A DNA stretch of 64,000 bases. It comes from Hyphomicrobiales bacterium (GTDB lineage: Bacteria > Pseudomonadota > Alphaproteobacteria > Rhizobiales > Xanthobacteraceae). The position numbers and the translations under genes are program-made. Positions 26,717-43,713 of this stretch are shown one piece after another; the first letter of the stretch is position 1, and each line of letters begins with the position of its first letter. Location of the stretch: assembly GCA_017305665.1 (NCBI GenBank), contig JAFKKH010000010.1, positions 62,001 through 126,000 on the forward strand. Direction: 5' to 3'. The notes beneath the pieces are model-generated. The model made no database searches. It worked only from the letters and a program-made list of their open reading frames with translations, and was not told the DNA's origin.

Positions 26717-28147
26717 ATGACCTCGGAGATCACAGGTGCGGCCAATGGTCCCGGCGAGTCGGAAGCATCCGCCGACGCGGCGCCGGAACGCCTGCGGTTG
26801 AGGTCCGATCACGATGCCGATGTTTGCGTGATCGGTGCTGGCCTTGCGGGCCTGACGGTAGCGTTCGAGGCGGCGCGGATGGGCGCGAGCGTCGCCGTGC
26901 TTGAAGGCCGCCATGTCGGCTGGAACGCGTCGGGCCATCATCTCGGCACGGTGATGCCGGGTTACGCGCTGCCGCTATCCGATCTGATCGCGCGAGTCGG
27001 GTTCGACGATGCGCGCGAGTTGTGGTTGCTGTCGAAGCAGGGCGCCGAATATGTCCGCGCGCAAGCCGCCGAGGATGTCATTCCCGATCTTGCGCTGAGC
27101 GACGGTGCGCTCGAGGTCTCCAATGTCGACGCCGGTGACCGGCTGATCAGCCGTCTGCAGATGCTCACCGAGGATTTCGCAACGGAAGTGGAAGGCTGGC
27201 AGGTCGATCGTGTGCGCGACGCGCTGCGCACCGAGCGCTATTTTCACGCGGTGCATTACCCAAAAGCGTTCCAGATCGACGGCCGCAAATACATTCACGG
27301 CCTCGCGGAGCTCGCCCGCAGGGCCGGTGTGCGCATTTTCGAGGAGACGCCTGTGGTCGGCATCGATGCCGCCGGTGTCCGAAAACGAATCGTGACGCCG
27401 CAGGCGCGGCTGCGCGCCTCGCATGTCGTGCTTGCCGGCAACGTCCATCTCGGCGAGGCGTCGCGGCGGCTGTCGGATACGTTGCTCCCGGTGTGGCGCT
27501 ATGCCGCCGTCACCGCGCCGCTCGGAGAGCGGCTCGCGGAGGTGATCACGTTCCAGGGTTCCGTCACCGACAGCGACGGCATCGATCATTTCCGGATCGT
27601 CGAGGGCGATCGCCTGATGTGGGCGAGCCCCGAAACCACCTGGGAGGCGCGGCCGCAACGGTATGCCGGCGCCATCCGCAACCGCATCCGTACGATGTTT
27701 CCGAAGCTCGGCAAGGTCGAGATCGCCGAGACGTTCTGCGGTGCGATCGGGCAGACCGTGCACGGCATGCCGCAGATCGGCCAGTTGCGCCCGGGCCTCT
27801 GGGTCGCGAGCGGCTTTGGCCGGCAGGGGCTGAACACCTCGGCGATGGCGGGTCAACTGCTCGCGCGCAGCATGTTCGCGAGCGACGACCGCTGGCGGCT
27901 GTTTTCGCCGTTCGAACTGGTGTGGGCTGGCGGAACCAGCGGGCGCGTCGCCGGATACGCCCTCAATGTGGCCGGGCGTGCAGGCTCGGCCGCCGCCGGC
28001 ACGCTTGCGCGCTACCGGGAGCGGGCGCGGGGCAGGGAGCGCACGCGGGAGGCGCGGCTCGCCGCCGCCAACCGGCAGGCGGGAACGCAGTCGTCGCGCT
28101 CTGGCGCTGCGTCATCGTCGCCGGATCGTTCCGAAGGAATAGAATGA
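26717..28147 (+). CDS. FAD-dependent oxidoreductase, DAO/PuuB-like
   Basis: The protein has 476 residues. After a ~35-residue polar leader comes a dinucleotide-binding motif VCVIGAGLAGLTVAFEAARMG. The GWNASGHHLGTVMPGY segment is typical of amine/glutamylputrescine oxidases. The C-terminal flavin-contact region has GLWVASGFGRQGLNTSAMAG, followed by a ~60-residue Arg/Ala-rich tail. It probably oxidises an amine or amino acid. AAGGA lies nine bases upstream of the ATG. No polyamine genes are nearby to identify the substrate. Confidence 0.83.
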   Translation: MTSEITGAANGPGESEASADAAPERLRLRSDHDADVCVIGAGLAGLTVAFEAARMGASVAVLEGRHVGWNASGHHLGTVMPGYALPLSDLIARVGFDDARELWLLSKQGAEYVRAQAAEDVIPDLALSDGALEVSNVDAGDRLISRLQMLTEDFATEVEGWQVDRVRDALRTERYFHAVHYPKAFQIDGRKYIHGLAELARRAGVRIFEETPVVGIDAAGVRKRIVTPQARLRASHVVLAGNVHLGEASRRLSDTLLPVWRYAAVTAPLGERLAEVITFQGSVTDSDGIDHFRIVEGDRLMWASPETTWEARPQRYAGAIRNRIRTMFPKLGKVEIAETFCGAIGQTVHGMPQIGQLRPGLWVASGFGRQGLNTSAMAGQLLARSMFASDDRWRLFSPFELVWAGGTSGRVAGYALNVAGRAGSAAAGTLARYRERARGRERTREARLAAANRQAGTQSSRSGAASSSPDRSEGIE

Positions 28148-28262
28148 GATCATAGGGGTTCGCCTCTCGGGAATGTGAGCGGCGCCGGTCCGGATCGGTG
28201 TAACTTTACGGGCTACGGCTGCGTATCTCGCACGGTCCCTTTCGATTGCCACGGAGATATCC

Positions 28263-28778
<516 letters not shown>

Positions 28779-28857
28779 TGAGTTGACGCGGTTTCGGCCT
28801 CGCGGCCCACGCAACCACCGCGATCCTCCCGGCAAGAGTTGCCCCGCTAGGCAAGAG

Positions 28858-28890
28858 TGCCCCGGTCTGTCGGCCGGGGCATTCTTTTTA
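28858..28890 (+). terminator. Intrinsic terminator
   Basis: TGCCCCGG and CCGGGGCA form an 8-base perfect stem followed by ATTCTTTTTA. It ends transcription before the flgE promoter. Confidence 0.85.
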
Positions 28891-28918
28891 TCATATTGAA
28901 GCAACAATACTTTTCCTG

Positions 28919-28935
28919 TTGGCACGGGGCTTGCG
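28919..28935 (+). promoter_or_regulatory. Sigma-54 promoter of flgE
   Basis: TTGGCACGGGGCTTGCG matches the -24/-12 consensus (TGGCACG-N4-TTGC) with invariant GG and GC separated by exactly 10 bases. It lies 75 bases upstream of the flgE start. An activator such as FlbD would be required. Confidence 0.85.
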
Positions 28936-29009
28936 ACATCGTTCTCCGACTGCGGCTGTGGTTTGGCTGACCTCCGGCGGGCCGCCCGGATCGAGTTGGA
29001 GACGATGTT

Positions 29010-30851
29010 ATGGGTATTTTCGACGCACTGAATACTTCAGTCGGCGGTCTGCAGGCGCAGTCCTTCGCGCTGCAGAACATCTCCGGCAACATCGCGAATG
29101 CCCAGACCACGGGCTACAAGGGCATCAGCACCGCCTTCAGCGACCTGATCCCCGACTCGACCAACCCAGACCGCCAGGTCGCCGGCGGCGTCACCGCCTT
29201 CGCGGTCTCCACGATCACCACCCAGGGCACGGTGTCGGCCTCGACGGTCGGCACCTACATGGCGATCACCGGCGACGGCTTCTTCAACGTGCAGGCCCCG
29301 ACGGGCCGGGTGGATAACCAGCCGGTGTTTTCCGGCGTCACCTACTACACGCGGCGCGGCGACTTCCAGGTCGACGCCAACGGCAACCTCGTCAACAGCG
29401 CCGGCTACTACCTGATGGGCGTGCCGGTCGATCCCAAGACCGGCAACCCGCTCGGCAACGTGCCGCAGGTGCTGCAGTTCCAGAACAACTTCATTCCCGC
29501 GCAGGCCACCACGACGCTGCAATATGCCGCCAACCTGCCGGCCGTTCCGACCACGCTGTCGAGTTCGACCGCGACCGCCGGCACGATTACCGCGGCGGGT
29601 GGATTGAATCCGTCCGACTTCACCAGCGGCTTCAATCCGCTGGTCGTCGGCACCCCGGCGCCGCCCCATACCGACAACACCATTTCCGGCTCGGCCGCGA
29701 CCAATCAGCAGACGCCACCGGTCGCGATCACCAATGCGACGCTGCTGTCGGGCACGGCTCCGAGCAACTCGCTGCCGGGGGGCTTTGCCTCGGGTGATAC
29801 CATCGTCGTCGACGGCACCACCATCACCTTCACCGACGCCAGCACCGCGGTGCCTCCGGGCGCGCAGGACGCGACCCACGTGCGCATCGACGATACCGTC
29901 GGCGATCTCCTCGGCAAGATCGGCGCGATCACCGGTCAGGCTCCGACGATCGATGCCAGCACCGGCGCGATCACGCTGCATACCGGCACGGCGCAGGACC
30001 TCTCGGTCACCAGCGCTTCGGCCGGCTGGACCGCGATGGGCTTCGGCACGACGACCACCCTCGCACGCGGCGGCGGCGGCACGCCCGGCGCCGGCACGGT
30101 CATCGCCAACGACCAGACCATCTTCCAGCAGGAATCGATCAGCGGCGGCGCGGTGACGGTTTACGACGCGACCGGTACGGCGGTGAACCTGCAGTTGCGC
30201 TGGGCCAAGACCGACAGCGCCTCGCTCGGCGCGGGCCACGCCGACAGCTGGAACCTGTTCTATCAGGCCAACCCGAACGCCACCGGTACGCAGGCCGCCT
30301 GGATCAACGTCGGCACCAACTTCACCTTCGGCACCAACGGCCAGCTCTCGAGCCCGGTCGGTTCGTCAATTACGATTCCGAACGTCACCGTCGGCACCCA
30401 GTCGCTCGGCAACCTCTCGCTCAATCTCGGCACCGGCGGCCTGACCCAGTACGCGAGCAGCGGCGGCAACGCCACCATCAACGCGATCAACCAGAACGGC
30501 TACGCCGCCGGTCAGTTGCAGTCGGTCGCCGTCAACAACGACGGCATCGTGGTCGGCACCTTCTCGAACGGCCAGAACCTCGACCTCGCGCAGGTGTCGC
30601 TGTCGCACTTCAACGGCACCAATTACCTGAAAGCCATGGACGGCGGCGCCTACGCCGTGACCGACGAGTCGGGACCGGCGATCGCGGGGGCGTCCGGACA
30701 CATCAGCGGCTCGTCGCTCGAAGGCTCCAACACCGACATCGCCGACGAGTTCACCAAGCTGATCGTGACGCAGCAGGCCTATTCGGCGAACACCAAGGTC
30801 ATCACCACGGCGAACAGCATGGTTCAGGATCTCCTGAACGTGCTGCGATAG
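29010..30851 (+). CDS. flgE: Flagellar hook protein FlgE
   Basis: The protein has 613 residues, against about 400 in enteric bacteria. The N-terminus MGIFDALNTSVGGLQAQSFA and NISGNIANAQTTGYKG carries the rod/hook/filament signature. The C-terminus has SGSSLEGSNTDIADEFTKLI and the helix QAYSANTKVITTANSM. The extra length lies in the middle, including a DGTTITFTDAST / VGDLLGKIGAITGQ module similar to the inserts in the flagellins (DUF1522-like). Exported by the flagellar type III system. GGAG precedes the ATG. First gene of flgE-flgK-flgL. Confidence 0.95.
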   Translation: MGIFDALNTSVGGLQAQSFALQNISGNIANAQTTGYKGISTAFSDLIPDSTNPDRQVAGGVTAFAVSTITTQGTVSASTVGTYMAITGDGFFNVQAPTGRVDNQPVFSGVTYYTRRGDFQVDANGNLVNSAGYYLMGVPVDPKTGNPLGNVPQVLQFQNNFIPAQATTTLQYAANLPAVPTTLSSSTATAGTITAAGGLNPSDFTSGFNPLVVGTPAPPHTDNTISGSAATNQQTPPVAITNATLLSGTAPSNSLPGGFASGDTIVVDGTTITFTDASTAVPPGAQDATHVRIDDTVGDLLGKIGAITGQAPTIDASTGAITLHTGTAQDLSVTSASAGWTAMGFGTTTTLARGGGGTPGAGTVIANDQTIFQQESISGGAVTVYDATGTAVNLQLRWAKTDSASLGAGHADSWNLFYQANPNATGTQAAWINVGTNFTFGTNGQLSSPVGSSITIPNVTVGTQSLGNLSLNLGTGGLTQYASSGGNATINAINQNGYAAGQLQSVAVNNDGIVVGTFSNGQNLDLAQVSLSHFNGTNYLKAMDGGAYAVTDESGPAIAGASGHISGSSLEGSNTDIADEFTKLIVTQQAYSANTKVITTANSMVQDLLNVLR

Positions 30852-30891
30852 CCGCGGCACGGGTTGATCTGATTTCGAGGCGGGCAAAAAG

Positions 30892-32760
30892 ATGAGTTTG
30901 AGTTCGGCCCTCTCCATCGCGATATCCGGCCTGCGCGCCAACCAGGCGGCGCTGTCGATCGTCTCCGGCAACGTCGCCAATGCGAACACGCCCGGTTACG
31001 TCTCGCAGACGCTGGTGCAGGATCAGATCGTCACCGGCAGCACCGGTTCGGGTGTCCGCGTCATCGGCGTCGAACGCACGCTCGATACCTACGTGCAGTC
31101 GCAACTGCGCACGGAAAACGCCGGCGCCTCCTACGCCGACCAGATCGCCAACGTGCTCGGCCAGTTGCAGAACGTCTATGGCACGCCGGGCAACGACGGT
31201 ACGCTGGAAAACGCGCTCAACAACTTCACCTCGGCGCTGCAGGCGCTGTCGGCAAGTCCGGGCAACACGGCCGCGCAATCGTCGGTGCTGAATGCCGCGC
31301 AGGCGCTGGCGCAACAACTCAACGCCACCACGAGCGGCATCCAGACGTTACGCTCCAACGCCGAACAGGATCTCTCGGTGTCGGTCTCGCAGGCCAACGC
31401 AGCGATGCAGCAGATCGCGCAGCTCAATCAGAAGCTGCAAAGCATGAGCGCCCAGGACCCGGCGGCCGCGACGCTGATGGACCAGCGCGATTCCGCGATC
31501 GATCAGCTCTCGAAGCTGATGGACATCCGCGCCGTCACCGACAGCACCAACCAGACCTCGATCTTCACCACGGCTGGCATCCAGCTCGTCGGCGGCGTGC
31601 AGGCCTCGACGCTGTCGTTCAACGCGCAGTCCTCGCTCACCGCGAGCTCGCAGTGGAACGCCGATCCGAGCAAATCGAACGTCGGCACCATCATCTGCCA
31701 GCTCCCGAACGGCGCCAGGGTCGACATGATCGCGACGCAGGGCATCAATTCCGGCCAGATCGCGGCCGACGTCCAGTTGCGCGACAAGACGCTGGTGCAG
31801 GCGCAGAACCAGATCGACCAGATGGCGGCGACGCTTTCGAGCGCATTGTCCGACGTCACCACGAACAGCACCCCGGTCGCAGGGCCGCCATCGGGCTTCG
31901 ACACCGATCTGTCGAACGTGCTGCCGGGCAACTCCTTCAACGTCACCTACACGGACTCGAGCAACGTCTCGCATACCGTCACCGTGGTGCGGGTCGACGA
32001 TCCGACCGCGCTGCCTATACCGAACACGGCGTCGAATCCGAACGACAAGGTGATCGGCGTCAATTTTTCCGGCGGGCTCGGCTCGATCATGGCGCAGCTC
32101 AACGCGCAGATCGGCGGCACGGCGCATCTGACGTTCTCCGCGTCGGGGTCGCAGCTCCGCGTCACCGGCGACGGCTCGGGCGCGTCGACGGTGACCGCGG
32201 CCTCGACCACGACCACCACGCAGTCGCTGGCCTCGGGCAATCCGCAACTGCCGTTCTTCACCGACCGCAGCTCGCTCTATACCGGCGCGATCACCGGAAC
32301 GGCGTCGCAGATCACGGGGTTGGCCGGACGTATCCAGGTCAATGCCGCGCTGCTCGCCGATCCCTCGAAGCTCACGGTCTACAGCACGTCGCCTGTAACG
32401 CCTGCCGGCGACACCACGCGCTCCGATTTCCTCTATGACCAGTTGACGTCGGCGACCTATACCTACTCGCCGAACACCGGTCTTGGCGCCGCATCCGCGC
32501 CGTTCACCGGCACGCTGCCGTCGTTCCTTCAGCAGTTCGTCAGCGTGCAGAGTGGTGCCGCGACCACGGCGAAGCAGGTGGCGCAGGGCCAGGACGTCGT
32601 CGTCAACACGCTGCAGGAGAAGTTCAACGCCAAGGCGGGCGTGAACATCGACACCGAGATGACAAACCTGATCGCGTTGCAGAATTCCTACGCAGCGAAC
32701 GCGCATGTGATGTCGGTGGTACAGACCATGATGCAGACGCTGCTGCAGGCTCAGGTGTAA
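30892..32760 (+). CDS. flgK: Flagellar hook-associated protein 1, FlgK
   Basis: The protein has 622 residues. The N-terminus MSLSSALSIAISGLRANQAAL with SGNVANANTPGYVSQ and the C-terminus VNIDTEMTNLIALQNSYAAN are diagnostic of FlgK. It forms the hook-filament junction. The middle holds a Thr/Ser-rich segment with the VNFSGGLGSIMAQLNAQIGG pattern, again like the shared insert. The gene starts 41 bases after flgE and is probably in the same transcript. Confidence 0.94.
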   Translation: MSLSSALSIAISGLRANQAALSIVSGNVANANTPGYVSQTLVQDQIVTGSTGSGVRVIGVERTLDTYVQSQLRTENAGASYADQIANVLGQLQNVYGTPGNDGTLENALNNFTSALQALSASPGNTAAQSSVLNAAQALAQQLNATTSGIQTLRSNAEQDLSVSVSQANAAMQQIAQLNQKLQSMSAQDPAAATLMDQRDSAIDQLSKLMDIRAVTDSTNQTSIFTTAGIQLVGGVQASTLSFNAQSSLTASSQWNADPSKSNVGTIICQLPNGARVDMIATQGINSGQIAADVQLRDKTLVQAQNQIDQMAATLSSALSDVTTNSTPVAGPPSGFDTDLSNVLPGNSFNVTYTDSSNVSHTVTVVRVDDPTALPIPNTASNPNDKVIGVNFSGGLGSIMAQLNAQIGGTAHLTFSASGSQLRVTGDGSGASTVTAASTTTTTQSLASGNPQLPFFTDRSSLYTGAITGTASQITGLAGRIQVNAALLADPSKLTVYSTSPVTPAGDTTRSDFLYDQLTSATYTYSPNTGLGAASAPFTGTLPSFLQQFVSVQSGAATTAKQVAQGQDVVVNTLQEKFNAKAGVNIDTEMTNLIALQNSYAANAHVMSVVQTMMQTLLQAQV

Positions 32761-32778
32761 CGGTGTAGGGCGGTTCGT

Positions 32779-34554
32779 ATGGCAATCAACGGCATCAGCT
32801 TCGGCAACACGATTCTCAGCAGTTCGGTCCAGAACCTCAAGGCGCAGATGGCCGATCTGCAGAACCAGCTCACCAGCGGCAAGCGCGCGACGACCTATTC
32901 GGGCATGGGTGCCAATGAGGGTTTCGCGATTGCCGCGCGTTCGCAACTTGCGAACATCGCCGCCTATACCGACACGATGTCGAAGATCACCACCAACATC
33001 AACGTCGGCAACACAGCCTTGCAGGCGCTGGCCGACATCGGCACGCAGTTGCAGACCGCCGCGAACAGCGGATCGCAGGCGCTGAACAGCGCCGGCCAGA
33101 CCGCCGGTCAGCAAACGGCAGTCGCCGAATTCTCCTCGGTCGTCGGCATCCTGAACACGCAGGCCGGCGACCGTTACATCTTTTCCGGCAGCACCATCTA
33201 CACCCAGCCCGTGGCGTCGTCCGATCTGATCCTGAACGGAAACGGGGCCGGGCAGGCCGGATTGAAGCAGGTCATCTCCGAACGCAATCAGGCCGACCTC
33301 GGTGCCGACGGCCTCGGCCGCGTCGCGATCTCATCGCCGACAGCGACATCGATGTCGGTGGCGGAGGACGCCTCGCCGTCGACCTACGGCATGAAGCTGA
33401 GCAAGGTCACCTCGACGCTTTCAGGCGCGACCGTCACCAACACGCCGGCGACGGTCAACCTCGCCAGCAATCCGGCGGACGGCGACACCTTCAATTTCAC
33501 CTTCCTGCAGGCCGACGGCAGCAGCCAGACGGTTCAACTGACGGCAACGACGACGGCGCCGCCGCCCGCGGGCTCGTTCGCGATCGGCGCGACTGCCGCC
33601 GACACCGCCACCAATTTGAACGCCGCGCTGACCAGCGCCGAGGCCAGTTCGTCGCCCTACGGCGCGCAACTGACGAACGTGAGTTCGACGAGCGCGGCGG
33701 GCGTAACGGTGACGCCGGCGCAGGCGTCCATCGACCTCGGGACCAGCAATCCGGTGGACGGCGACACGGTGAGTTTCACCTTCAACCTTCCGGACGGCAC
33801 CAGCGAAACGGTGCAACTGACTGCCTCCAGCGAAGTGCCGACACCGGCCGGCAGCTTTGCCATCGGCGCAACGCCGGCGGCGACCGCCGCCAATCTCAAT
33901 GCCGCGGTGACGAGCTCGGTCGGTACGCTGGCCAAGACGTCGCTGGTCGCAGCCTCCGCGATCAAAGCGTCGGACGATTTCTTCGACACGCCGCCGCAAC
34001 GCGTCGACGTGACGCCGCCGGCAACGCTGGCGACCGCGACGGCCGCGGTGAACGGCACGGCGGCGAACACCGTGCAGTGGTACACGGGCGATGCCGGCAC
34101 CGGCTCGGCGCGTGCGACCTCGACAGTGCGGGTCGATCCGACCGTGACGGTGCAATACGGCATGCGCGGCAACGAAGATGCCATCCGCTCGCTCGTCCAG
34201 TCGGTCGCCGTTCTCGCTGCGGTGACGACATCGCCGACCGATCCGAACGGGGCCGATCAGATCTCGGCGCTCAACGCACGCGTCGCGCAGAATCTCACGG
34301 CGACGCCCGGCAAGCAGAACATCCAGGATATTCAGGCCGACCTCGCCAACGCGCAGACCGTGATGAAGGACGCCACCGCGCGCCAGACGCTGACGCAGGC
34401 CACGATGCAGAACATCGTCGATCAGGCCGAGAACGTCTCCACCGACGAGGTCGCGAGCCAGTTGCTGGCCCTGCAGACCGACTTGCAGGCCTCGTACCAG
34501 ACGACGTCCATGCTGTCGCAGCTCAGCCTGGTGAAGTTCCTGCCGGTTGGCTAG
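32779..34554 (+). CDS. flgL: Flagellar hook-associated protein 3, FlgL (enlarged)
   Basis: The protein has 591 residues, about twice the enteric length. The flagellin-like N-terminus (ISFGNTILSSSVQNLKAQMA, LTSGKRATTYSG) and the C-terminus (LLALQTDLQASYQTTSMLSQ) are FlgL-like. The middle contains two tandem copies of a ~95-residue module (DGDTFNFTFLQADGSSQTVQ and DGDTVSFTFNLPDGTSETVQ, each followed by AGSFAIGAT). It is the second junction protein between hook and filament. It starts 18 bases after flgK. Confidence 0.92.
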   Translation: MAINGISFGNTILSSSVQNLKAQMADLQNQLTSGKRATTYSGMGANEGFAIAARSQLANIAAYTDTMSKITTNINVGNTALQALADIGTQLQTAANSGSQALNSAGQTAGQQTAVAEFSSVVGILNTQAGDRYIFSGSTIYTQPVASSDLILNGNGAGQAGLKQVISERNQADLGADGLGRVAISSPTATSMSVAEDASPSTYGMKLSKVTSTLSGATVTNTPATVNLASNPADGDTFNFTFLQADGSSQTVQLTATTTAPPPAGSFAIGATAADTATNLNAALTSAEASSSPYGAQLTNVSSTSAAGVTVTPAQASIDLGTSNPVDGDTVSFTFNLPDGTSETVQLTASSEVPTPAGSFAIGATPAATAANLNAAVTSSVGTLAKTSLVAASAIKASDDFFDTPPQRVDVTPPATLATATAAVNGTAANTVQWYTGDAGTGSARATSTVRVDPTVTVQYGMRGNEDAIRSLVQSVAVLAAVTTSPTDPNGADQISALNARVAQNLTATPGKQNIQDIQADLANAQTVMKDATARQTLTQATMQNIVDQAENVSTDEVASQLLALQTDLQASYQTTSMLSQLSLVKFLPVG

Positions 34555-34655
34555 CGATTCATTAACCACGTCTGTTTACGATTTGTTGAGGGACGAAGGC
34601 CGCTCCGCCCAGGGTTGAGTGGCTTTGTGCGGAATTGGGTCTGGGGAAATCGCCA

Positions 34656-35906
34656 ATGGATCATCGGCCGCTCGAGATTGCGGACAACGGCGACGTCTTG
34701 CGCGCCGACCGGATCGGCTTTGCCAAGCTTGCGAAACTCGCGTTCGACGGATGCGATCTGCGGCCGATGCTACAGACGACGCTGCGCAGGATCGGCGAGG
34801 GGATGGCGAGCGCCGGCGAGACCATCGACCTGTCCGTCATCGCGCAACTGCTCGGCAACAAGCAGGCGGGGCTCGATATCCAGTCCCAGGTGCTATCAGC
34901 TCAGCGGCTGTTCCGCTCGCCCTGCGCCAGCGCATATCCGTCGTTGCGCGTGCTGGCACTCGCGGCCGCGATGGATGTCGGCGGCAATACGCCGATCGAA
35001 TTTCTGGTCGAGGATTTCGATATCGAACTCACCACACTCTACGTGGTGCCGGGCACGTCGCTGCCGCCGCTGCCGGATCACGACGTGGCGATCGTGGTCG
35101 CATCCGATTCCGAAGAGTGTCGTGACGCGCTGAAGGAGATGGCAGCGCTCGCATCGCGCTGGCCGCGGCCGCTGCTGAATGCGCCGGATCGCATCGGCAA
35201 TCTCGACCGCGACAAGCTCTGTCGTTTGCTGAGGGGCGTTCCGGGTCTCGAGATTCCGGAGACTCTGGTGGCAAGCCGGGTGCTGCTCGAGAGGTTGGCG
35301 AGCGGCGCGATGGCGTTGAGCGACATCGCGAGCGATCTTGCATTTCCAATCATCGTTCGGCCGCGCGGCTCTCATGCCGGTCTTGGATTGGCGAAGATCG
35401 ACGACCGCGCGGCATTAATCGGTTATCTCGCGGAGCGCAACGAAGAGGACTTCTTCATCTCGCCCTTCGTCGATTACTCCGACGCCGATGGACAGTTCCG
35501 CAAATACCGGCTCGCCTTCGTCGAGGGGCGGCCATTCGCGGGTCATATGGCGATCGCTGCGCAGTGGAACATCTGGTACCTCAACGCCGGCATGGCGTTC
35601 AGCGCCGAGAAGCGGCGCGAGGAAGAACAGTTCATGCGCAACTTTGATACTGAGTTCGCGCATCGTCATCGCGACGCGCTGCGCGCGATCGCCGATCGTG
35701 TCGGCCTCGATTATTTCACGATCGATTGCGCCGAAAACAAGCGCGGTGAACTGTTGTTGTTCGAGGCCGACAACACCGCCGTCGTGCACAACATGGATTC
35801 TCCGGATCTGTTTCCCTACAAGCCGCCGCAAATGCGCATGATCTTCGATGCGTTTGCACGGATGCTCCGGCGCCGTGCGCGCGACAGCCGGGAACGCGCG
35901 GCATGA
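34656..35906 (+). CDS. ATP-grasp ligase-like protein, unknown substrate
   Basis: The protein has 416 residues. Residues 1-110 are helical and unfamiliar. Residues 120-180 look like a pre-ATP-grasp Rossmann-like domain. An ATP-grasp core follows: FPIIVRPRGSHAGLGLAKI (230-248) for nucleotide/Lys contacts, DGQFRKYRLAFVEGRPFAGH (278-297), and the metal-binding strand GELLLFEADNTAVVHNMD (364-381) with E370 and N373. These enzymes join a carboxylate to an amine via acyl phosphate. GGGGAAA precedes the ATG. Its stop overlaps the next gene by four bases (ATGA), so the two are translationally coupled. It sits 101 bases after flgL, inside the flagellar cluster. Confidence 0.75.
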   Translation: MDHRPLEIADNGDVLRADRIGFAKLAKLAFDGCDLRPMLQTTLRRIGEGMASAGETIDLSVIAQLLGNKQAGLDIQSQVLSAQRLFRSPCASAYPSLRVLALAAAMDVGGNTPIEFLVEDFDIELTTLYVVPGTSLPPLPDHDVAIVVASDSEECRDALKEMAALASRWPRPLLNAPDRIGNLDRDKLCRLLRGVPGLEIPETLVASRVLLERLASGAMALSDIASDLAFPIIVRPRGSHAGLGLAKIDDRAALIGYLAERNEEDFFISPFVDYSDADGQFRKYRLAFVEGRPFAGHMAIAAQWNIWYLNAGMAFSAEKRREEEQFMRNFDTEFAHRHRDALRAIADRVGLDYFTIDCAENKRGELLLFEADNTAVVHNMDSPDLFPYKPPQMRMIFDAFARMLRRRARDSRERAA

Positions 35907-37402
35907 CGGTCGCGTGGCGCGATGCGCCGCCGCTGGCGCCACAAGATCTATCATCCGATCGTAGTGAAACACTCGATCCCGAGGATTGGAAGGCATTGCG
36001 CACACAGGGGCATCGCATGCTCGACGATATGTTCGATCATGTCGCCGGCGTTCGCGCGCGTCCAGTGTGGCAGCCGATTCCACCTGAGACCCGTGCGCGC
36101 TTTCGCGGAGCGCTTCCGCAAGCGCCGACCGATCTCGGCGACGTCTATCGCGAATTCGCAGATCACATCGCGCCCTACACCACCGGCAATATTCATCCTG
36201 GCTTCATGGGATGGGTGCACGGCGGCGGGAATGCCGTCGGCATGCTCGCGGAAATGCTCGCAGCGGGGCTGAACGCCAATTGCGGCGGACGCGATCACGT
36301 TCCGATCGAGGTCGAACGCCAGATCGTCCAGTGGACGCGGCAGATGTTCGGTTTTCCTGACACCGCGAGCGGCCTCTTCGTCACGGGCACGTCGATGGCG
36401 AATCTGATGGCGGTGCTGGTTGCGCGCGCGACGCGGCTCGGGCCTTCGGTGCGCCAGCATGGATTGTCGGATTGCGGCGCGCGGCTCACCGCCTATACAT
36501 CGGTCGCGACCCACGGCTGCATCGCGCAGGCGATGGATCTCGCCGGCTTCGGCACGGACGCTTTGCGCCGCATTCCGGTCGATCACTGTCATCGCATCGA
36601 CGTCGCGGTCTTGCGCGCGCAGATCGCCGCCGATCGCGTCGCGGGTTTCGAGCCGTTTCTCGTGGTCGGCTCGGCCGGCACGGTCGATATCGGCGCGATC
36701 GACGATCTCGCCGCACTCCATGACGTGTGCCGCGACGAGGACATATGGCTGCACGTCGATGGTGCGTATGGCGCGCTCGGCATTCTGTCGGCGGAAATCG
36801 CGCCGCGTCTCGCCGGCATCGAAAGCGCCGACTCGATCGGGTTCGATTTCCACAAATGGGGGCAGGTGCCCTACGACGCCGGCTTCCTGCTGGTGCGCGA
36901 CGGTGAGCAGCATCGCGCGACGTTCGCGGCGTCCGCGGCTTATCTGCGTCGCGAAACGCGAGGGCTTGCGGCGGGCTCGCCATGGCCGTGCGACTACGGG
37001 CCGGATCTGTCGCGCGGCTTCCGCGCACTGAAGACCTGGTTCACGCTGAAGACCTATGGCACCGATAAGCTCGGTGCGGTGATATCGCGCACCTGTGAAC
37101 TCGCACGCTATATGGAAGCGAAGGTCGCCGCAGAGCCGCGGCTCGAATTGCTCGCACCGGTGCAGCTCAATATCGTCTGCTTTCGTTATCGCGCCGAGGA
37201 TGCGGATGCCGTCAACGCGGACATCGTCGCGGCACTGCACGAGTCCGGAATCGCCGCGCCGTCGACGACCACGCTCGATGGCCGGATCGCGATCCGCGCC
37301 GCGATCGTCAATCACCGCACCGACAGGCGCGACATCGATGCATTATTGTCTGCGGTGCTGGAATTCGGTGCGTGCGAAACGGCAGCGCGAATCGAAAGGT
37401 GA
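35903..37402 (+). CDS. PLP-dependent group II amino acid decarboxylase-like protein
   Basis: The protein has 499 residues and fold type I. PLP contacts are the stacking H204 (VATHGC), D286 (HVDGAYG) that pairs with the ring nitrogen, and the Schiff-base K318 in FDFHKWGQ. The LSRGFRALKTWFTLKTYG segment is typical of aromatic/tyrosine decarboxylases and sphingosine-phosphate-lyase relatives. The usual Pro before His-Lys is Phe here. It overlaps the ATP-grasp gene by four bases, suggesting a two-step pathway: decarboxylate an amino acid, then ligate the amine or a related carboxylate. That pathway is inference. Confidence 0.82.
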   Translation: MTVAWRDAPPLAPQDLSSDRSETLDPEDWKALRTQGHRMLDDMFDHVAGVRARPVWQPIPPETRARFRGALPQAPTDLGDVYREFADHIAPYTTGNIHPGFMGWVHGGGNAVGMLAEMLAAGLNANCGGRDHVPIEVERQIVQWTRQMFGFPDTASGLFVTGTSMANLMAVLVARATRLGPSVRQHGLSDCGARLTAYTSVATHGCIAQAMDLAGFGTDALRRIPVDHCHRIDVAVLRAQIAADRVAGFEPFLVVGSAGTVDIGAIDDLAALHDVCRDEDIWLHVDGAYGALGILSAEIAPRLAGIESADSIGFDFHKWGQVPYDAGFLLVRDGEQHRATFAASAAYLRRETRGLAAGSPWPCDYGPDLSRGFRALKTWFTLKTYGTDKLGAVISRTCELARYMEAKVAAEPRLELLAPVQLNIVCFRYRAEDADAVNADIVAALHESGIAAPSTTTLDGRIAIRAAIVNHRTDRRDIDALLSAVLEFGACETAARIER

Positions 37403-37438
37403 GAAGTGGTCAGCGGCGCGCTCGCGCGCGGCGCCGCG

Positions 37439-37870
37439 TCAGGCCGATTTCTGCTCTTTCATATCCGTGCGGTCGGCGCCGTCCGTGCTCATGTCCACGA
37501 GCTTCTTCTCATAGGCGATCAGCTTCTTGACTTCCTTGAGCGCCTTGTAGAGGTCGCCGTTGAGGATGTCGTTGTTGATGCCTTCGATGATCGGCCATGC
37601 GCTCGGCATGGTGGTGATGATGTCGCGCAGCAAACTGAAATACGTGCCGTGATTGATCTGCGGCTCCGGCGACAGATACATCAGTTGCACGGCGAGATAG
37701 ATCAGCTTCGCCGGCGTATCCGCTGTTTCCGGCGTCAGGATGTCCTTCTCGCGAAGGATTGGAATCCGGTCGCCATCGATCAGCAGCCGCGCACGCTGAT
37801 CGGTATTGGTGACGACGCATGCGCCGATGATGATGCGTTCGTGCGGCTTCAGTTCGACTTTCAGAGCCAT
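37439..37870 (-). CDS. flbT: Flagellin biosynthesis repressor FlbT
   Basis: The protein has 143 residues starting MALKVELKPHERIIIGACVV, with LRDIITTMPSAWPIIEGINN, characteristic of FlbT. In Caulobacter it binds the 5' untranslated region of flagellin mRNA and lowers its stability until the hook is complete. The C-terminus is charged. The ATG at 37870 was chosen over the longer frame. Its target flagellin genes lie next door on the opposite strand, and flaF lies beyond them. Confidence 0.93.
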   Translation of the reverse strand: MALKVELKPHERIIIGACVVTNTDQRARLLIDGDRIPILREKDILTPETADTPAKLIYLAVQLMYLSPEPQINHGTYFSLLRDIITTMPSAWPIIEGINNDILNGDLYKALKEVKKLIAYEKKLVDMSTDGADRTDMKEQKSA

Positions 37871-38248
37871 GCCGGGTTTCCCTGTTGCTGGAGCAAGCCG
37901 AGCGTTGATCGGTTCATACCGTTTGCCGGCGTGCGGATGATCGCGCGGCCGCACACGGTTTGACCGATCTTGCCGCAATCCTTTCCGATCATGGTTAACG
38001 CGAGGTTAATGCCTCGCTCCACTGGCTGAGCGGAATCGCCTGAAAGTGCTGTCCTGTCAGCGACGTTCGGGTCGGCGCGTAAATCGAAGTCCGGCCGGTG
38101 CCGGCGGAAGTGTGCCGCATGTGGGGCAGGTTGTAACGATCTACTTCACGCTTTTTTAGAGTCTTGGCCTCAGGGTGAGCCATCGTCCGAAGACTACGTT
38201 TCGGCGTTACGCACGCAGTATGTGTATTCACACCAGAAAGGTATGAAA
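37871..38248. other. Divergent flbT / flagellin regulatory region, 378 bases
   Basis: Holds the CtrA-type site at 37991-38009 and the presumed untranslated leader of the first flagellin gene. I see no coding frame with support. No sigma-54 element was found here. Confidence 0.5.
37991..38009. promoter_or_regulatory. CtrA-type site between flbT and flagellin 1
   Basis: TTAACGCGAGGTTAA at 37995-38009 fits TTAA-N7-TTAA exactly. The same TTAA reads as TTAACCAT on the minus strand (37991-37998), facing flbT. The site is 121 bases from the flbT start and 240 bases before flagellin 1. Confidence 0.65.
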
Positions 38249-39778
38249 ATGTCAGGTATCGTCCTCTCCGCATCGGTTCGCCAGAACCTGCTCTCCCTCC
38301 AGTCCACCGCCGATCTGCTCTCCACCACGCAGAACCGCCTTGCCACCGGCAACAAGGTCAATTCGGCCCTCGACAATCCGACCAACTTCTTCACCGCTCA
38401 GGGCCTCGACAACCGCGCCAGCGACATCAACAACCTGCTCGATGGCATCGGCAACGGCGTGCAGGTGCTGCAGGCCGCCAACACCGGCATCACCTCGCTG
38501 CAGAAGCTGGTCGATACCGCCAAGTCGATCGCCAACCAGGCGCTGCAGGCAACCTCGGGCTATTCGACCAAGTCGCAGGCGACCACCGCCGCCGTGACCG
38601 GTGCGACGGCGTCGAACCTGCTGGGCGGCACGGCGTCTGCGGCGACCAACGCCAAGACCACGAGCACCGTCGATCTGAGCGCCGGAATCGATGCTTCTGG
38701 CGGTGCCAAAACCTTCACGGTCAACGGCCAGACCGTGACGCTGGCCACGAACGGCGGCAGCTCCAGTAACGGCCAATATTCGATCAGCGACATCGAAGCC
38801 GCGATCAATGGGACGGCCGGTGTCGGCGTCAACGCTACCGATGACGGCGCGGGTCATCTGATCCTCACCAGCACCGGCACCGCGGGTGCGGCCGATACCA
38901 TTACGCTCGGCGGCACGGACGTCGCTTCGGTATTCGGCGCAACCCCCACGGTGACTCCCGGCACTGACGCGGGTACCACGGGCGGTCTGTCTGGCCTCAC
39001 CCTGACGATCGCTGCGACCGACGGCGGCACTGCCACGAACATCACTTTCGGCACCGGCACCGGCCAGGTTTCGACCCTTGATCAGTTGAACACGGCGCTG
39101 GCCGCGAACAACCTGACGGCGTCGATCAATTCGTCTGGCGCGCTGACGTTCACCACGACGAACGATCACGCTTCGGCGACGATCGGCACCGTTGGCGGCA
39201 CCGCGACTGGCGCAGGCAATCCGCTCGGCGCAATTACGGTGAATGCTCCGGTGGCCGATGCCAACGCGCAGAACACCCGTGCAACGCTGGTCAGCCAATA
39301 CAACGCGGTGATCGATCAGATCAAGACCACCGCGCAGGACTCGTCCTTCAACGGTATCAACCTGCTCAACGGCGACCAGCTCAAGCTGGTGTTCAACGAA
39401 ACCGGCAAGTCCACCCTGAACATCCAGGGCGTGACTTTCGATCCGGCTGGCCTCGGCCTGTCGTCGCTGGCGTCGGGTACCGACTTCCTGGATAACGCCA
39501 GCACCAACAAGGTGCTCGACTCGCTGAACAACGCGTCCAGCACGCTGCGTTCACAGGCCTCGACGCTTGGTTCGAATCTGTCGATCGTGCAGATCCGTCA
39601 GGACTTCTCGAAGAACCTGATCAACGTGTTGCAGACCGGCTCGTCCAACCTGACGCTCGCCGATACCAACGAGGAAGCGGCGAACAGCCAGGCGCTGTCC
39701 ACCCGCCAGTCGATCGCGGTGTCTGCGTTGGCGCTCGCCAACCAGTCGCAGCAGAGCGTGCTTCAGCTGCTCCGCTGA
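38249..39778 (+). CDS. Flagellin 1
   Basis: The protein has 509 residues. The N-terminal helix SGIVLSASVRQNLLSLQ and the C-terminal helix ending ANQSQQSVLQLLR are conserved flagellin core domains. The middle carries one DUF1522-like beta module (TFTVNGQTVTLATNGG, IEAAINGTAGVGVNATDDGA). AAAGG seven bases before the ATG at 38249 supports this start over the ATG at 38243. It is the filament subunit, presumably controlled by FlbT and FlaF. A strong terminator follows. Confidence 0.95.
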   Translation: MSGIVLSASVRQNLLSLQSTADLLSTTQNRLATGNKVNSALDNPTNFFTAQGLDNRASDINNLLDGIGNGVQVLQAANTGITSLQKLVDTAKSIANQALQATSGYSTKSQATTAAVTGATASNLLGGTASAATNAKTTSTVDLSAGIDASGGAKTFTVNGQTVTLATNGGSSSNGQYSISDIEAAINGTAGVGVNATDDGAGHLILTSTGTAGAADTITLGGTDVASVFGATPTVTPGTDAGTTGGLSGLTLTIAATDGGTATNITFGTGTGQVSTLDQLNTALAANNLTASINSSGALTFTTTNDHASATIGTVGGTATGAGNPLGAITVNAPVADANAQNTRATLVSQYNAVIDQIKTTAQDSSFNGINLLNGDQLKLVFNETGKSTLNIQGVTFDPAGLGLSSLASGTDFLDNASTNKVLDSLNNASSTLRSQASTLGSNLSIVQIRQDFSKNLINVLQTGSSNLTLADTNEEAANSQALSTRQSIAVSALALANQSQQSVLQLLR

Positions 39779-39802
39779 TACCGACGACACATCATTAAAC
39801 GA

Positions 39803-39829
39803 AACGGCGGGGGAAACCCCGCCGTTTTT
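39803..39829 (+). terminator. Intrinsic terminator after flagellin 1
   Basis: AACGGCGGGG / CCCCGCCGTT with a GAAA-like loop, followed by T5. It separates the two flagellin genes into different transcripts. Confidence 0.9.
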
Positions 39830-40165
39830 GCGTTTGGAGCGCCGCACAGTTCATCCTGAGCTGAACTGTCAGCGATGACTCTCAACCCGCTGGACGACTG
39901 CAGTAAATGCCGTATGAGATGCGATTTTGAAACTTCTGAATCATCCGTTGAGTGGAGTGCTCTAAGGCTATCGCAGACCTCGCATTTTGCCATCTGGATT
40001 GAGAAAGCGCGTCGGCAGTTCATCCCGGGGCGGGGCGGGCGATATCGGGCCGGCGTCGGTTAATGGACCATTAACCATAAATTAAAAGGTCTTGTTCATA
40101 CCTTCCAGCGCGGAACCGGCTCCCGCCGCGAGTCGGACTCCGCCCACGTCAGGGAAGGGCCAGAA
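39830..40165. other. Promoter region of flagellin 2
   Basis: Contains a short inverted repeat ACAGTTCA / TGAACTGT (39846-39869) and the double CtrA-type site at 40060-40085. I see no gene. Confidence 0.5.
40060..40085 (+). promoter_or_regulatory. Tandem CtrA-type sites upstream of flagellin 2
   Basis: Three TTAA boxes (40060-40063, 40071-40074, 40082-40085) are each separated by exactly seven bases, making two overlapping TTAA-N7-TTAA sites. The middle box is part of TTAACCAT. The array lies 80 bases before the flagellin 2 start codon. Confidence 0.75.
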
Positions 40166-42025
40166 ATGTCCGATATCGTTCTCTCCGCATCGGTTCGCCA
40201 GAACCTGCTCTCGCTGCAGTCGACCGCCGATCTGCTCGCCACCACGCAGAACCGTCTCGCCACCGGCAAGAAGGTCAACACGGCCCTCGACAATCCGACC
40301 AACTATTTCACGGCCGCCGCGCTCGACAATCGCGCCAACGACATCAACAGCCTGCTCGATGGCATCAGCAATGGCGTGCAGGTGCTGCAGGCCGCCAACA
40401 CAGGCCTGACTTCGCTGCAGAAGCTCGTCGACAGCGCGAAGTCCGTCGCCAACCAGGTGCTGCAGAGCACGGTCGGCTATTCGCAAAAATCCACCGTGAC
40501 CTCGCAGCCCGTCGCGGGCGCGGACCCGCTCAACCTGCTCGGCAGTGGTGGCGGTCCGATCAACGCAGTCCTGACCGGAACGAGCGCGATCACCCCGATC
40601 GACCTCACCGGCACGCCGGCGGCCAACGCCAAGACTACCAGCACGGTCGATCTCTCGGCCGGTCTGACCGATCCGGGCTCGAACGTCGCCTTCACAATCA
40701 ACGGCCAGACCGTGACCCTGGCCACAGGTAGCGGTACCGGCACCGGCGGCGCATTCACGCTGTCGAATATTGAAGCTGCGATCAACGGCACGGCCAGCGT
40801 TGGCGTCAACGCCACCGACGATGGCGCGGGTCATCTGGTCCTGACCAGCACCGGCACGGCCGGCGCGGCCGACACCATCGTGACCTCGGGTCTCGCTACC
40901 GCGGGTCTCGGCATTGCCGACAATACGTATAACGGCTCCGCTGCGGCGCCCCTTGCGAACGTCACGTTCCAGGTCAACGGCCAGACGGTGACCCTGGCGG
41001 GTGGCGCATCGTACGACGGCAACGCCATCGCAAGCACGATCAATACGCAGGTCGGTACCTCCGCGAGCGTCACGGCATCCTACGCCAGCGGTAAGCTGGC
41101 GATCACCAGCAACGGGACTGCCGGCGCGTCGGACGCAGTGACGGTGGCCACCTTCAGCACCGGCGACGCCTCGCAGCTCGGCTATCCGGCAGGCGCGTCA
41201 GCAACAGCAAATGGTGCAGCGACCTCGGGCAGTCTGTCTGGCAAGACGCTGACCATCGCGGCGACCGGCGGCGGCACGCCGGTCAATATCACCTTTGGCA
41301 CCGGCGCCGGTCAGGTCTCAACGCTGAACGCTCTCAATGCCGCGCTGCTGCCGAACAACCTGCAAGCCGCGATCAGCGCCGCGGGCGTCATCACCATCAC
41401 CACCTCGAGCGAGGGCGCCTCGTCCACCATCGGCACGATCGCCGGCACCGCGACCGATCCCGGCGGCCCATTCGCTGGCGCGGTCGGCACACCGCCGGTC
41501 GCCGATCCGGTCTCGCAGCAGGCGCGCGCGGGGCTGATCGACCAGTACAACAACATCATCGCGCAGATTAACACCACCACGGCCGACTCCTCGTTCAACG
41601 GCATCAACCTGCTCAACGGCGACACGCTGAAGCTGATCTTCAATGAGACCGGAAAGTCGGTGCTGTCGATCACCGGAACCAACACCAACGCTGTGGGTCT
41701 CGGCTTGTCGGCGCTCACTGCGGGAACCGATTTCCTCGACAACGGTTCCGCCAACCGCGTGATCGCGGACCTCGACAAGGCCTCGAGCATCCTGCGCACG
41801 CAGGCCTCGACGCTGGGTTCCAACCTGTCGATCGTGCAGATCCGCCAGGACTTCTCGAAGAACATCATCAACGTCCTGCAGACCGGCTCGTCGAACCTGA
41901 CGCTGGCCGACACCAACGAGGAGGCTGCGAACAGCCAGGCGCTGTCCACCCGCCAGTCGATCGCGGTGTCCGCACTGGCACTGGCGAACCAGTCGCAGCA
42001 GAGCGTGCTGCAACTGCTTCGCTGA
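40166..42025 (+). CDS. Flagellin 2, longer paralogue
   Basis: The protein has 619 residues. N- and C-terminal core helices are nearly identical to flagellin 1, including the last ~60 residues. The central region is 110 residues longer because the NGQTVTL module occurs twice (FTINGQTVTLATGSGTG and FQVNGQTVTLAGGASYDG). GAAGGGCCAGAA precedes the ATG. It is expressed from its own promoter, since a terminator lies upstream. The two products may build different filament regions, which is inference. Confidence 0.95.
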   Translation: MSDIVLSASVRQNLLSLQSTADLLATTQNRLATGKKVNTALDNPTNYFTAAALDNRANDINSLLDGISNGVQVLQAANTGLTSLQKLVDSAKSVANQVLQSTVGYSQKSTVTSQPVAGADPLNLLGSGGGPINAVLTGTSAITPIDLTGTPAANAKTTSTVDLSAGLTDPGSNVAFTINGQTVTLATGSGTGTGGAFTLSNIEAAINGTASVGVNATDDGAGHLVLTSTGTAGAADTIVTSGLATAGLGIADNTYNGSAAAPLANVTFQVNGQTVTLAGGASYDGNAIASTINTQVGTSASVTASYASGKLAITSNGTAGASDAVTVATFSTGDASQLGYPAGASATANGAATSGSLSGKTLTIAATGGGTPVNITFGTGAGQVSTLNALNAALLPNNLQAAISAAGVITITTSSEGASSTIGTIAGTATDPGGPFAGAVGTPPVADPVSQQARAGLIDQYNNIIAQINTTTADSSFNGINLLNGDTLKLIFNETGKSVLSITGTNTNAVGLGLSALTAGTDFLDNGSANRVIADLDKASSILRTQASTLGSNLSIVQIRQDFSKNIINVLQTGSSNLTLADTNEEAANSQALSTRQSIAVSALALANQSQQSVLQLLR

Positions 42026-42147
42026 TAGCGGGAAGATGACGTCGCGACGGAGCTTGCGAGCGAAACGGCGCGGCATCCATCGCGCCATCGCGCGACACGG
42101 TTCGCGGCATCCGTTCGCCGTGTTCCCGTCGCATTTGAAAACGCCGC

Positions 42148-42162
42148 GTAACCATATTTTAA
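42148..42162 (+). promoter_or_regulatory. Partial CtrA-type site upstream of flaF
   Basis: GTAACCATATTTTAA differs from TTAA-N7-TTAA by one base. It lies 57 bases before the flaF start and could serve flaF. Confidence 0.45.
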
Positions 42163-42219
42163 AAGCGGTGCCGGTATAAATATAAAGCCGTGCGCTCCCT
42201 CTCTTTCCCGAGGTTCTGA

Positions 42220-42585
42220 ATGTCGAATGCTGCTCAAGCCTACGCCCGGACGGCGCAGACATCGTCGTCTCCCCGCGAAATCGAGGCCCAGGCTTTGCTG
42301 AAAGCAGCGCGACAGCTTCAGGAGATCCAGTCCAACTGGAACGGGCCGGACAAGGCGATGCACAATGCGCTGCTGTTCAACCGCCGTCTGTGGTCGATCT
42401 TCATGAGCGCGGCGGACAGCAACGACAATCAGCAGTCGCTGGAGGTTCGTCAGAACATCACCAATATCGGCGTGTTCGTGATGAAGCAGACCGTCGACAT
42501 GCAGATGAATCCCGATCCCTCGAAGCTGAAATCGTTGATCGACATCAACTGCAATCTCGCCGCCGGTCTGTCCGGGCGCGCGTGA
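42220..42585 (+). CDS. flaF: Flagellar biosynthesis regulator FlaF
   Basis: The protein has 121 residues starting MSNAAQAYARTAQTSSSPRE with LLKAARQLQEI and ALLFNRRLWSIFMSAA, the FlaF pattern. In Caulobacter it is needed for flagellin synthesis or secretion and works against FlbT. GAGG seven bases upstream of the ATG supports the start. It follows flagellin 2 after 194 bases. Confidence 0.93.
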   Translation: MSNAAQAYARTAQTSSSPREIEAQALLKAARQLQEIQSNWNGPDKAMHNALLFNRRLWSIFMSAADSNDNQQSLEVRQNITNIGVFVMKQTVDMQMNPDPSKLKSLIDINCNLAAGLSGRA

Positions 42586-42613
42586 CGCGGCGCATCGCCG
42601 GCGGAGCTGCAGC

Positions 42614-42979
42614 GTGGCTGATATCCTGAGCATCATCGCATCGAACTACACGACGGTCGGACAGAACACCAATCTGACCACCGGCAAGTACGTCGACGTC
42701 GATCCAGCGACGTTCGAGGGCACATGGAGCGGCAAGTACGCCAACCAGAAGCCGTTCTCGGTGACGATCTCCAGCGTCAACGGTTTCCGCGCCAAGGCCA
42801 AGTATCAGTACGGCACCACGATCAAGTATCAGGACGTGCTGATCAAGAATAACTCTTTCCGCGTTGGCGACTCGAAATTCGTGCTGAAGAGCAACGGCAC
42901 TGCGCAGGTCAGCACGATCATGACCGATGCGGCGACGGGCGCGAGTTCGCTTGAAACCGCCTACGTACAGCAGGGCTGA
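42614..42979 (+). CDS. Small conserved-looking protein in flagellar cluster, unknown
   Basis: The protein has 121 residues starting at a GTG with GGCGGAG about ten bases upstream. It has no signal peptide. The sequence is beta-rich (DPATFEGTWSGKYANQKPFS, FSVTISSVNGFRAKAKYQYG) and suggests a small lipocalin- or hemolysin-repeat-like barrel. I do not recognise the family. It is 28 bases after flaF and probably co-transcribed, so a motility-related role is possible. Confidence 0.7.
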   Translation: MADILSIIASNYTTVGQNTNLTTGKYVDVDPATFEGTWSGKYANQKPFSVTISSVNGFRAKAKYQYGTTIKYQDVLIKNNSFRVGDSKFVLKSNGTAQVSTIMTDAATGASSLETAYVQQG

Positions 42980-43083
42980 CCGGTCGCACTGATACGATTG
43001 ATTGCGCCGCCTTCAATCGGCTTCGTCATGCCCGGCATAAAGTCGGCCGTGATAGGAATGTGATTAAATCTCGGACGTCCGGC

Positions 43084-43449
43084 TCAGGCGCGCCGGTCGG
43101 TCGCGACGGTCTGTTCGCGTTCCTGCTTCACCAGATCGAGCGCGCGGAAATAGGCGCGCCGCCGCAGCATCGCTTCGTCAGGGAACTGCTTGATGACGAG
43201 GCTCGTGCGGTTGTCGACGACCTGATAGACAATCGAGGCCGCGTCGCTGTCGACATAGGCCTGACGCGACAATGAATCGCCCGTACCCGGCGGATCGTTG
43301 CGCACAGCTCCGCCGGCTTCCGCGGCCGTGACGGTCTGGCTGGGGGGAAGTTGAGTCGCGACGCCGTCGTTCGCGGCCTGTCCGGCCGACTGAACGAGCG
43401 TCGTGACAACCGGTGCCCCAACCGGTTTGATGCTGAAATCCGTACTCAT
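43084..43449 (-). CDS. FlaG-like flagellar protein
   Basis: The protein has 121 residues. The C-terminal half IVYQVVDNRTSLVIKQFPDE-AMLRRRAYFR resembles the FlaG core (V-D-x-x-T-x-x-V-I-x-Q-x-P-x-E). The N-terminal half is Ala/Thr/Pro-rich and probably disordered, also like FlaG. FlaG influences filament length in other bacteria. The ATG at 43449 was chosen. It is convergent with the upstream small gene and divergent from the nitrite reductase gene. Confidence 0.72.
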   Translation of the reverse strand: MSTDFSIKPVGAPVVTTLVQSAGQAANDGVATQLPPSQTVTAAEAGGAVRNDPPGTGDSLSRQAYVDSDAASIVYQVVDNRTSLVIKQFPDEAMLRRRAYFRALDLVKQEREQTVATDRRA

Positions 43450-43642
43450 GGTCGCCCTCCAGGCTCCCTTCGAGTCAAATCCCAACCCTCACCAGCCGCA
43501 ACCCTAACGTCGGTTTCTCAACGGCGCGTTAGAAAACGTATTCAACGCGTTACTGCCGCCGATGCAGCAATTTGAATCAAATAGATGACGCGGGCGGAGG
43601 GTCTGCGGGGCGACAAGCGTTCGCGTCGATGTTGCGTCTGAT

Positions 43643-43656
43643 TTGATATGGAGCAA
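43643..43656 (+). promoter_or_regulatory. FNR/FixK/NnrR-type box upstream of nitrite reductase
   Basis: TTGATATGGAGCAA fits TTG-N8-CAA and nine of ten positions of TTGAT-N4-ATCAA. It is centred about 64 bases before the start codon, suitable for a class II activation site. It would link expression to low oxygen or nitric oxide. Confidence 0.6.
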
Positions 43657-43713
43657 ACTGCCCGGATCGGAACGTCCTATAATCAGCGAGACGGCACGGC
43701 AGGGGAGCAGACG

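Follow-up and report, generated by a model that had tools for sequence, protein, structure and literature searches.

Which task is performed by two overlapping genes for an ATP-grasp ligase (ATPg) and a pyridoxal-phosphate (PLP) decarboxylase (PLPdc), which lie inside a flagellar gene cluster of a Hyphomicrobiales bacterium (GCA_017305665.1, contig JAFKKH010000010.1, positions 62,001 to 126,000; this whole stretch of 64,000 nucleotides is referred to as the window)? A sequence-only reading had located the pair, joined by an ATGA junction, between flgL and flbT/flagellin, and had suggested a two-enzyme route that makes an amine and attaches it to a carboxylate. The coordinates (Table 1) were borne out, as were the identities of both enzymes, based on Pfam (PF00282), a structure model and fold comparison. 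According to our analysis, the two window genes represent a local and reduced form of a scattered cassette of up to three enzymes, the third of which, PLP2, is probably an aminotransferase, i.e. a second PLP enzyme of fold type I, judging by its fold and motifs. This previously unnamed set, of which we found no description in the open-access literature, probably makes a small amine and couples it with an acidic group that may belong to the flagellum.

The cassette was traced in 149 genomes of the family and 398 genomes of the phylum (genomes and loci are cited by our G and L numbers). ATPg-family matches were present in 26 family genomes, own genome included, four of which (G076, G097, G115, G146) carry a TPR-type paralogue only, and in 32 phylum genomes, where a few matches are TPR-type, weak or partial. 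PLPdc was detected at E 1e-110 in 29 family and 38 phylum genomes. Both enzymes co-occurred in 19 family genomes (5.1 expected, P = 1.6e-11) and in 23 phylum genomes (3.1 expected, P = 2.4e-20), whereby the relatedness of the genomes makes both P values too small. ATPg and PLPdc are paired in 28 of 44 loci, well past the bounds of the genus. The pair recurs in several gene orders and in more than one class, its two frames frequently overlapping, and named Rhodopseudomonas genomes carry the triplet or the pair; conserved pairing, which had been set beforehand as a test, was thus observed. PLP2 belongs to the set in 23 of the 44 loci and occurs in 13 of the family genomes; a genome-wide search did not find it in the own genome. 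In one genome only, PLP2 and the ATP-grasp protein are fused in a single open frame of 953 aa (L037:7772-10633). We regard the locus as more than a chance arrangement, since the two-gene stretch is single-copy (the own genome yields only the self-match), 26 family genomes carry an ATPg match and the ratios of nonsynonymous to synonymous substitution rates (dN/dS) against the nearest relative, L032, are 0.11 for ATPg and 0.15 for PLPdc, similar to flgL (0.15) and flgK (0.14).

ATPg has an ATP-grasp fold according to the structure model and structural comparison. The window protein matched no Pfam family above the cut-off, and it reached 13.5 bits against the RimK family TIGR00768 (cut-off 143.4), which was matched at E 0.1 or better by 13 of 20 ATPg rows (best 1.2e-5). 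Its nearest folds are protein-modifying ligases, with small-molecule ligases and kinases within about 3 Z units. Loss of ATP-binding residues, named beforehand as a sign against the proposed system, was not outright: D357, E370 and R285 are invariant across the 20 rows, whereas R235 occupies the position of the strand lysine in all of them, K187 is a lysine in 13 and the asparagine of the ExN motif is replaced in the window protein. This mapping is tentative, as it follows general ATP-grasp motifs and an hhalign alignment below significance, and the ATP/Mg-binding roles of the five numbered residues are putative assignments from those motifs. The N-terminus, described as helical and unfamiliar, indeed shows four helices in the model (residues 22-30, 36-47, 53-65 and 69-82), but it is possibly a worn TPR, given full TPRs in paralogues and one sub-threshold TPR match in the homologue L216 (19.8 vs 42 bits); a homologue annotated as a TPR protein gave no TPR match in the same Pfam search. 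Compared to the RimK alpha-L-glutamate ligases (ribosomal protein S6 modification) and ArgX/LysX, ATPg stands apart by its score far below the family cut-off, by R235 in place of the strand lysine, by the extra helical N-terminus and by its operon with PLP enzymes.

PLPdc is a group II decarboxylase with 223.7 bits against PF00282 (cut-off 27) and the conserved H-K. The sequence-only reading had considered its FDFHK context unusual; D315, F316, H317 and K318 are invariant in 16 aligned rows, but since five solved relatives have DAHK, NAHK (two), DYHK and NPHK at this position, the context is only mildly unusual. The best NCBIfam match was the L-2,4-diaminobutyrate decarboxylase RhbB (NF052646, 2e-59), at 201.5 bits with a cut-off of 900. 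PLPdc resembles the rhizobactin-type RhbB and other group II decarboxylases in its PF00282 membership and PLP lysine, and differs from them in the DFHK context. The tyrosine decarboxylase of the methanofuran pathway is MfnA, and PLPdc scored 82.8 bits against the MfnA model (cut-off 299.4). PLP2 differs from class V aminotransferases and cysteine desulfurases in that four PLP2 proteins matched no Pfam family, including the class V aminotransferase family PF00266, and a PDB sequence search revealed no real relative. Oxononanoate synthases made up 2 of 50 Foldseek-ranked structures aligned to PLP2; this alignment covers the ranked structures only, so that unlisted families are not thereby excluded.

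Is the cassette linked to motility? On an ATPg tree of 43 rows (excluding L100, L033-L035 and the TPR-type paralogues; some contigs are short), flagellar genes lie near ATPg in 12 rows, with 4 changes on the tree, at least 3 of which are forced by well-supported branches. Flagellar linkage is therefore present in independent lineages. Chemoreceptor genes lie nearby in 10 rows (5 changes, at least 4 forced); L111 was labelled as having neither neighbour, although a chemoreceptor gene is located about 4.7 kb away. None of 500 label shuffles gave as few changes for either label, which near-copies make easy. Among the separate flagellar cases are L101, in which fliC-flaG-fliD and two small open reading frames precede the triplet, and L109, a long branch on the tree, whose ATPg locus adjoins fliK and an flhB-like gene. 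Flagellin (PF00669) was present in 26/26 family genomes with ATPg versus 120/149 in the background (P = 0.002) and in 31/32 such phylum genomes versus 330/398 (P = 0.016), relatedness being ignored in both P values; with five genomes shared by the two samples, 52 of 53 distinct ATPg genomes have flagellin, and the sole exception is 68% complete. The cassette is recurrently linked to motility genes. Since 32 of 398 phylum genomes have an ATPg match, 31 of them together with flagellin, its product could be widespread in bacterial motility and yet have been overlooked. A definition of the set by flagella was rejected, because 21 of the 43 rows are near neither kind of motility gene; the proposed flagellar linkage holds as a repeated association, not as a rule.

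Within the own genus, flbT adjoins PLPdc in 9/9 genomes, and ATPg is present only in the window genome and G539; the other seven have the order flgL-PLPdc-flbT. In six of these seven, ATPg is absent genome-wide at E 0.001, and G538 was examined at the locus only. Each flgL-PLPdc gap was aligned to the ATPg bases alone, with 25 dinucleotide shuffles and the unrelated flgK as a control. A remnant corresponding to window positions 35617-35694, or part of them, is clear in L140-L143 (35.6-56.3 bits) and weaker in L144 (29.2 bits) and L146 (28.3 bits; matched by 2/25 shuffles), and the L145 gap holds a 3' piece of ATPg at 35862-35900 (26.5 bits). In the six gaps other than L146 no shuffle matched the remnant score, and the flgK control reached at most 22.9 bits. 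Judging by these remnants, ATPg was very probably ancestral in the genus and later deleted. An obligate two-enzyme pathway was rejected, since the seven genomes keep PLPdc at the site without ATPg; the route of making an amine and attaching it, as originally proposed, is hence not obligatory, and 23 of the 44 loci add a third PLP enzyme.

We give a probability of roughly 40% to an amine-making, amide-forming module that was recruited by motility systems and may modify a filament protein or its glycan. Its established part comprises the fold classes, the cassette structure, the co-occurrence and the repeated motility linkage. PLPdc would convert an amino acid to an amine, as expected of its family; PLP2, where present, probably feeds PLPdc by preparing either the amino acid or a partner, to judge from its fold and motifs; and ATPg, by its fold, would activate a carboxylate with ATP and link it through an amide bond to the amine that PLPdc releases, or to the amino acid from which this amine derives. 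Where the cassette lies among flagellar genes, the carboxylate would most likely belong to a filament protein or its glycan, and the helical N-terminus of ATPg may hold a protein partner. This acceptor is favoured by the protein-modifying relatives, the helical N-terminus, the flagellar linkage and the precedent of SfmE. In the Shewanella flagellin modification operon sfmABCDE, deletion of this ATP-grasp protein lowers the flagellin mass, according to PMC3765264. Both systems link an ATP-grasp protein to flagellin, whereas the genes of sfmABCDE, as described there, encode NeuB-domain, TPP-enzyme, reductase and methyltransferase functions, and none encodes a PLP decarboxylase; the two are set apart by description only.

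Several results weigh against the recruited module. These are the 21 rows with neither flagellar nor chemoreceptor genes nearby, PLPdc in two genomes without detected flagellin (G348, G062), and the loss of ATPg from seven of nine genus genomes in which PLPdc was kept as an open frame with dN/dS of 0.11-0.22 in 21 pairs. In addition, 10 of 20 searched ATPg genomes lack PLPdc at E 1e-60 (three of them have a TPR-type paralogue only); in the other ten it is located beside ATPg (G000, G046, G301) or elsewhere in the genome (G043, G114, G013, G057, G082, G485; weaker in G214). The ATPg profile aligned to E. coli RimK with a non-significant hhalign probability of 0.9 of 100 (E 0.065), so that the relation to RimK is weak at the sequence level. 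Finally, the top Foldseek ranks for PLP2 go to group II decarboxylases rather than to class V enzymes. We consider it quite improbable that all elements hold together in their most specific form, namely a new flagellar protein modification in which a PLP decarboxylase makes the amine on site with a novel class V-like PLP partner, and a ligase resembling RimK, guided by its TPR-like part, decorates acidic side chains on the filament protein or glycan with amides, encoded by a mobile three-gene cassette of variable order and piecemeal loss.

That genus members lost ATPg but retained PLPdc, and that some loci lie away from motility genes, favours either a free metabolite or separate jobs for the two enzymes. 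The cassette could, as an alternative only somewhat less probable than the recruited module, make a soluble amide or amine that serves as a signal, chemoeffector, osmolyte or cofactor, working like the decarboxylase and ATP-grasp steps of methanofuran/methylofuran synthesis, and its location would reflect shared regulation or a linked chemoreceptor that senses the product. The chemoreceptor neighbours in 10 of 43 rows encode methyl-accepting chemotaxis proteins (sCache_2 + MCPsignal; PAS + MCPsignal) and accompany the full triplet in 6 of the 10; moreover, plasmid copies exist and the 21 rows mentioned above have neither motility neighbour. Such genomes usually hold numerous chemoreceptor genes, so that this linkage may carry less weight than the linkage to flagellar genes. 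No recurrent transporter gene was found in a locus count covering three families only, and the nearest ATPg folds modify proteins, even if small-molecule enzymes follow closely. A precedent is provided by the ATP-grasp ligases MfnD/MyfA of the methanofuran/methylofuran pathway (PMC8141765). This pathway shares with the cassette the principle of combining a decarboxylase with an amide-forming ATP-grasp ligase but differs in genomic context. No methanofuran/methylofuran ligase model was among the NCBIfam matches to E 1 (window) or 0.1 (20 rows), the content of the library being unchecked.

Separate jobs appear unlikely to us; here, PLPdc would supply a general-purpose amine, ATPg would be an amino-acid ligase of RimK-like type that lineages gain and lose, and their adjacency would reflect shared mobility. 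Purifying selection on PLPdc in the seven ATPg-less genus genomes and the ten ATPg genomes without PLPdc fit this, as do the PLPdc carriers without ATPg (15/38 in the phylum, 10/29 in the family): among 20 inspected PLPdc-only regions none has ATPg, two have PLP2 and some adjoin a cysteine-synthase-like gene by our reading. Pairing in several orders and more than one class, overlapping frames and co-occurrence far above expectation argue against it; in addition, among 14 tested genomes whose main ATPg has no PLPdc next to it, a strong PLPdc is encoded at another site in 6 and a weaker one in G214. That the genes are degenerate passengers, functionless in the window, is very improbable; the loss of ATPg within the genus speaks for it, whereas dN/dS of 0.11 and 0.15, intact frames and invariant positions speak against it.

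As a separate observation, more distant PLPdc relatives (L206, L212, L213, L204) adjoin, by our reading, a cysteine-synthase-like gene and a SARP-like regulator, which suggests another pathway for the decarboxylase family.

Table 1 Features of the ATPg-PLPdc locus in the window.
Feature	Position	Strand	Basis or remark
ATPg, 416 aa, ATP-grasp ligase closest to the RimK clade; short N-terminus of four helices, possibly derived from TPR	34656..35906	+	
ATPg four-helix N-terminal part, codons 22-82	34719..34901	+	structure model; sub-threshold TPR in homologue L216; full TPRs in paralogues
ATPg pre-ATP-grasp and ATP-grasp domains, codons 97-408	34944..35879	+	aligned to RimK 5zct_C
PLPdc, group II PLP decarboxylase, 499 aa	35903..37402	+	start codon overlaps ATPg stop (ATGA)
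PLPdc FDFHK, codons 314-318, K318 as expected PLP lysine	36842..36856	+	aligned to H-K of solved decarboxylases
flgL-like gene, upstream neighbour	32779..34554	+	our reading; same position in eight other genus loci
flbT, convergent downstream neighbour	37439..37978	-	PF07378 5e-40
two flagellin genes (38222-39778, 40166-42025)	38222..42025	+	first: Pfam; second: similarity to first

ATPg starts 101 bp past the end of flgL, and PLPdc ends 36 bp before flbT, which is followed by the two flagellins and flaF. Pfam supports flbT, flaF and the first flagellin, whereas the names flgL, flgK and flgE are our reading and not database-assigned; the flgL-like protein has a Flagellin_N match just below the cut-off (25.4 vs 26.6 bits). 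An Rfam scan over 28000-44000 gave no match, and a sigma-70 promoter and terminator scan gave no signal above shuffled sequence. A phage or defence reading was dropped because PHROGs and PADLOC searches gave no useful match.

Further observations concern neighbouring genes. In G114 (L044:3002-8173), the flagellins are followed by a TPR and ATP-grasp paralogue, a protein read by us as FkbH-like (Pfam: sub-threshold hydrolase match) and an AhpC/TSA-like and 2OG-Fe(II) oxygenase protein, after which the main ATPg and flbT are located. The same oxygenase cluster adjoins TPR-type ATP-grasps in L060 and L061, and this may represent a second protein-modification set. In three loci of one genus (L040:10410-11195, L042, L043), a protein of 261-277 aa, which we read as glycosyltransferase-like (the L040 copy has no Pfam match), lies between flgL and PLP2. 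In the window, flaF is followed by a gene (42614-42979, plus strand) for a 121-aa protein without a Pfam family; similar proteins occupy this position in 5 of the 8 other loci of the genus and, by eye, also in L036 and L038. Farther away, positions 6361-11577 (minus strand) encode a protein of 1738 aa whose helical repeats are of the apolipoprotein type (PF01442, 9.4e-49).
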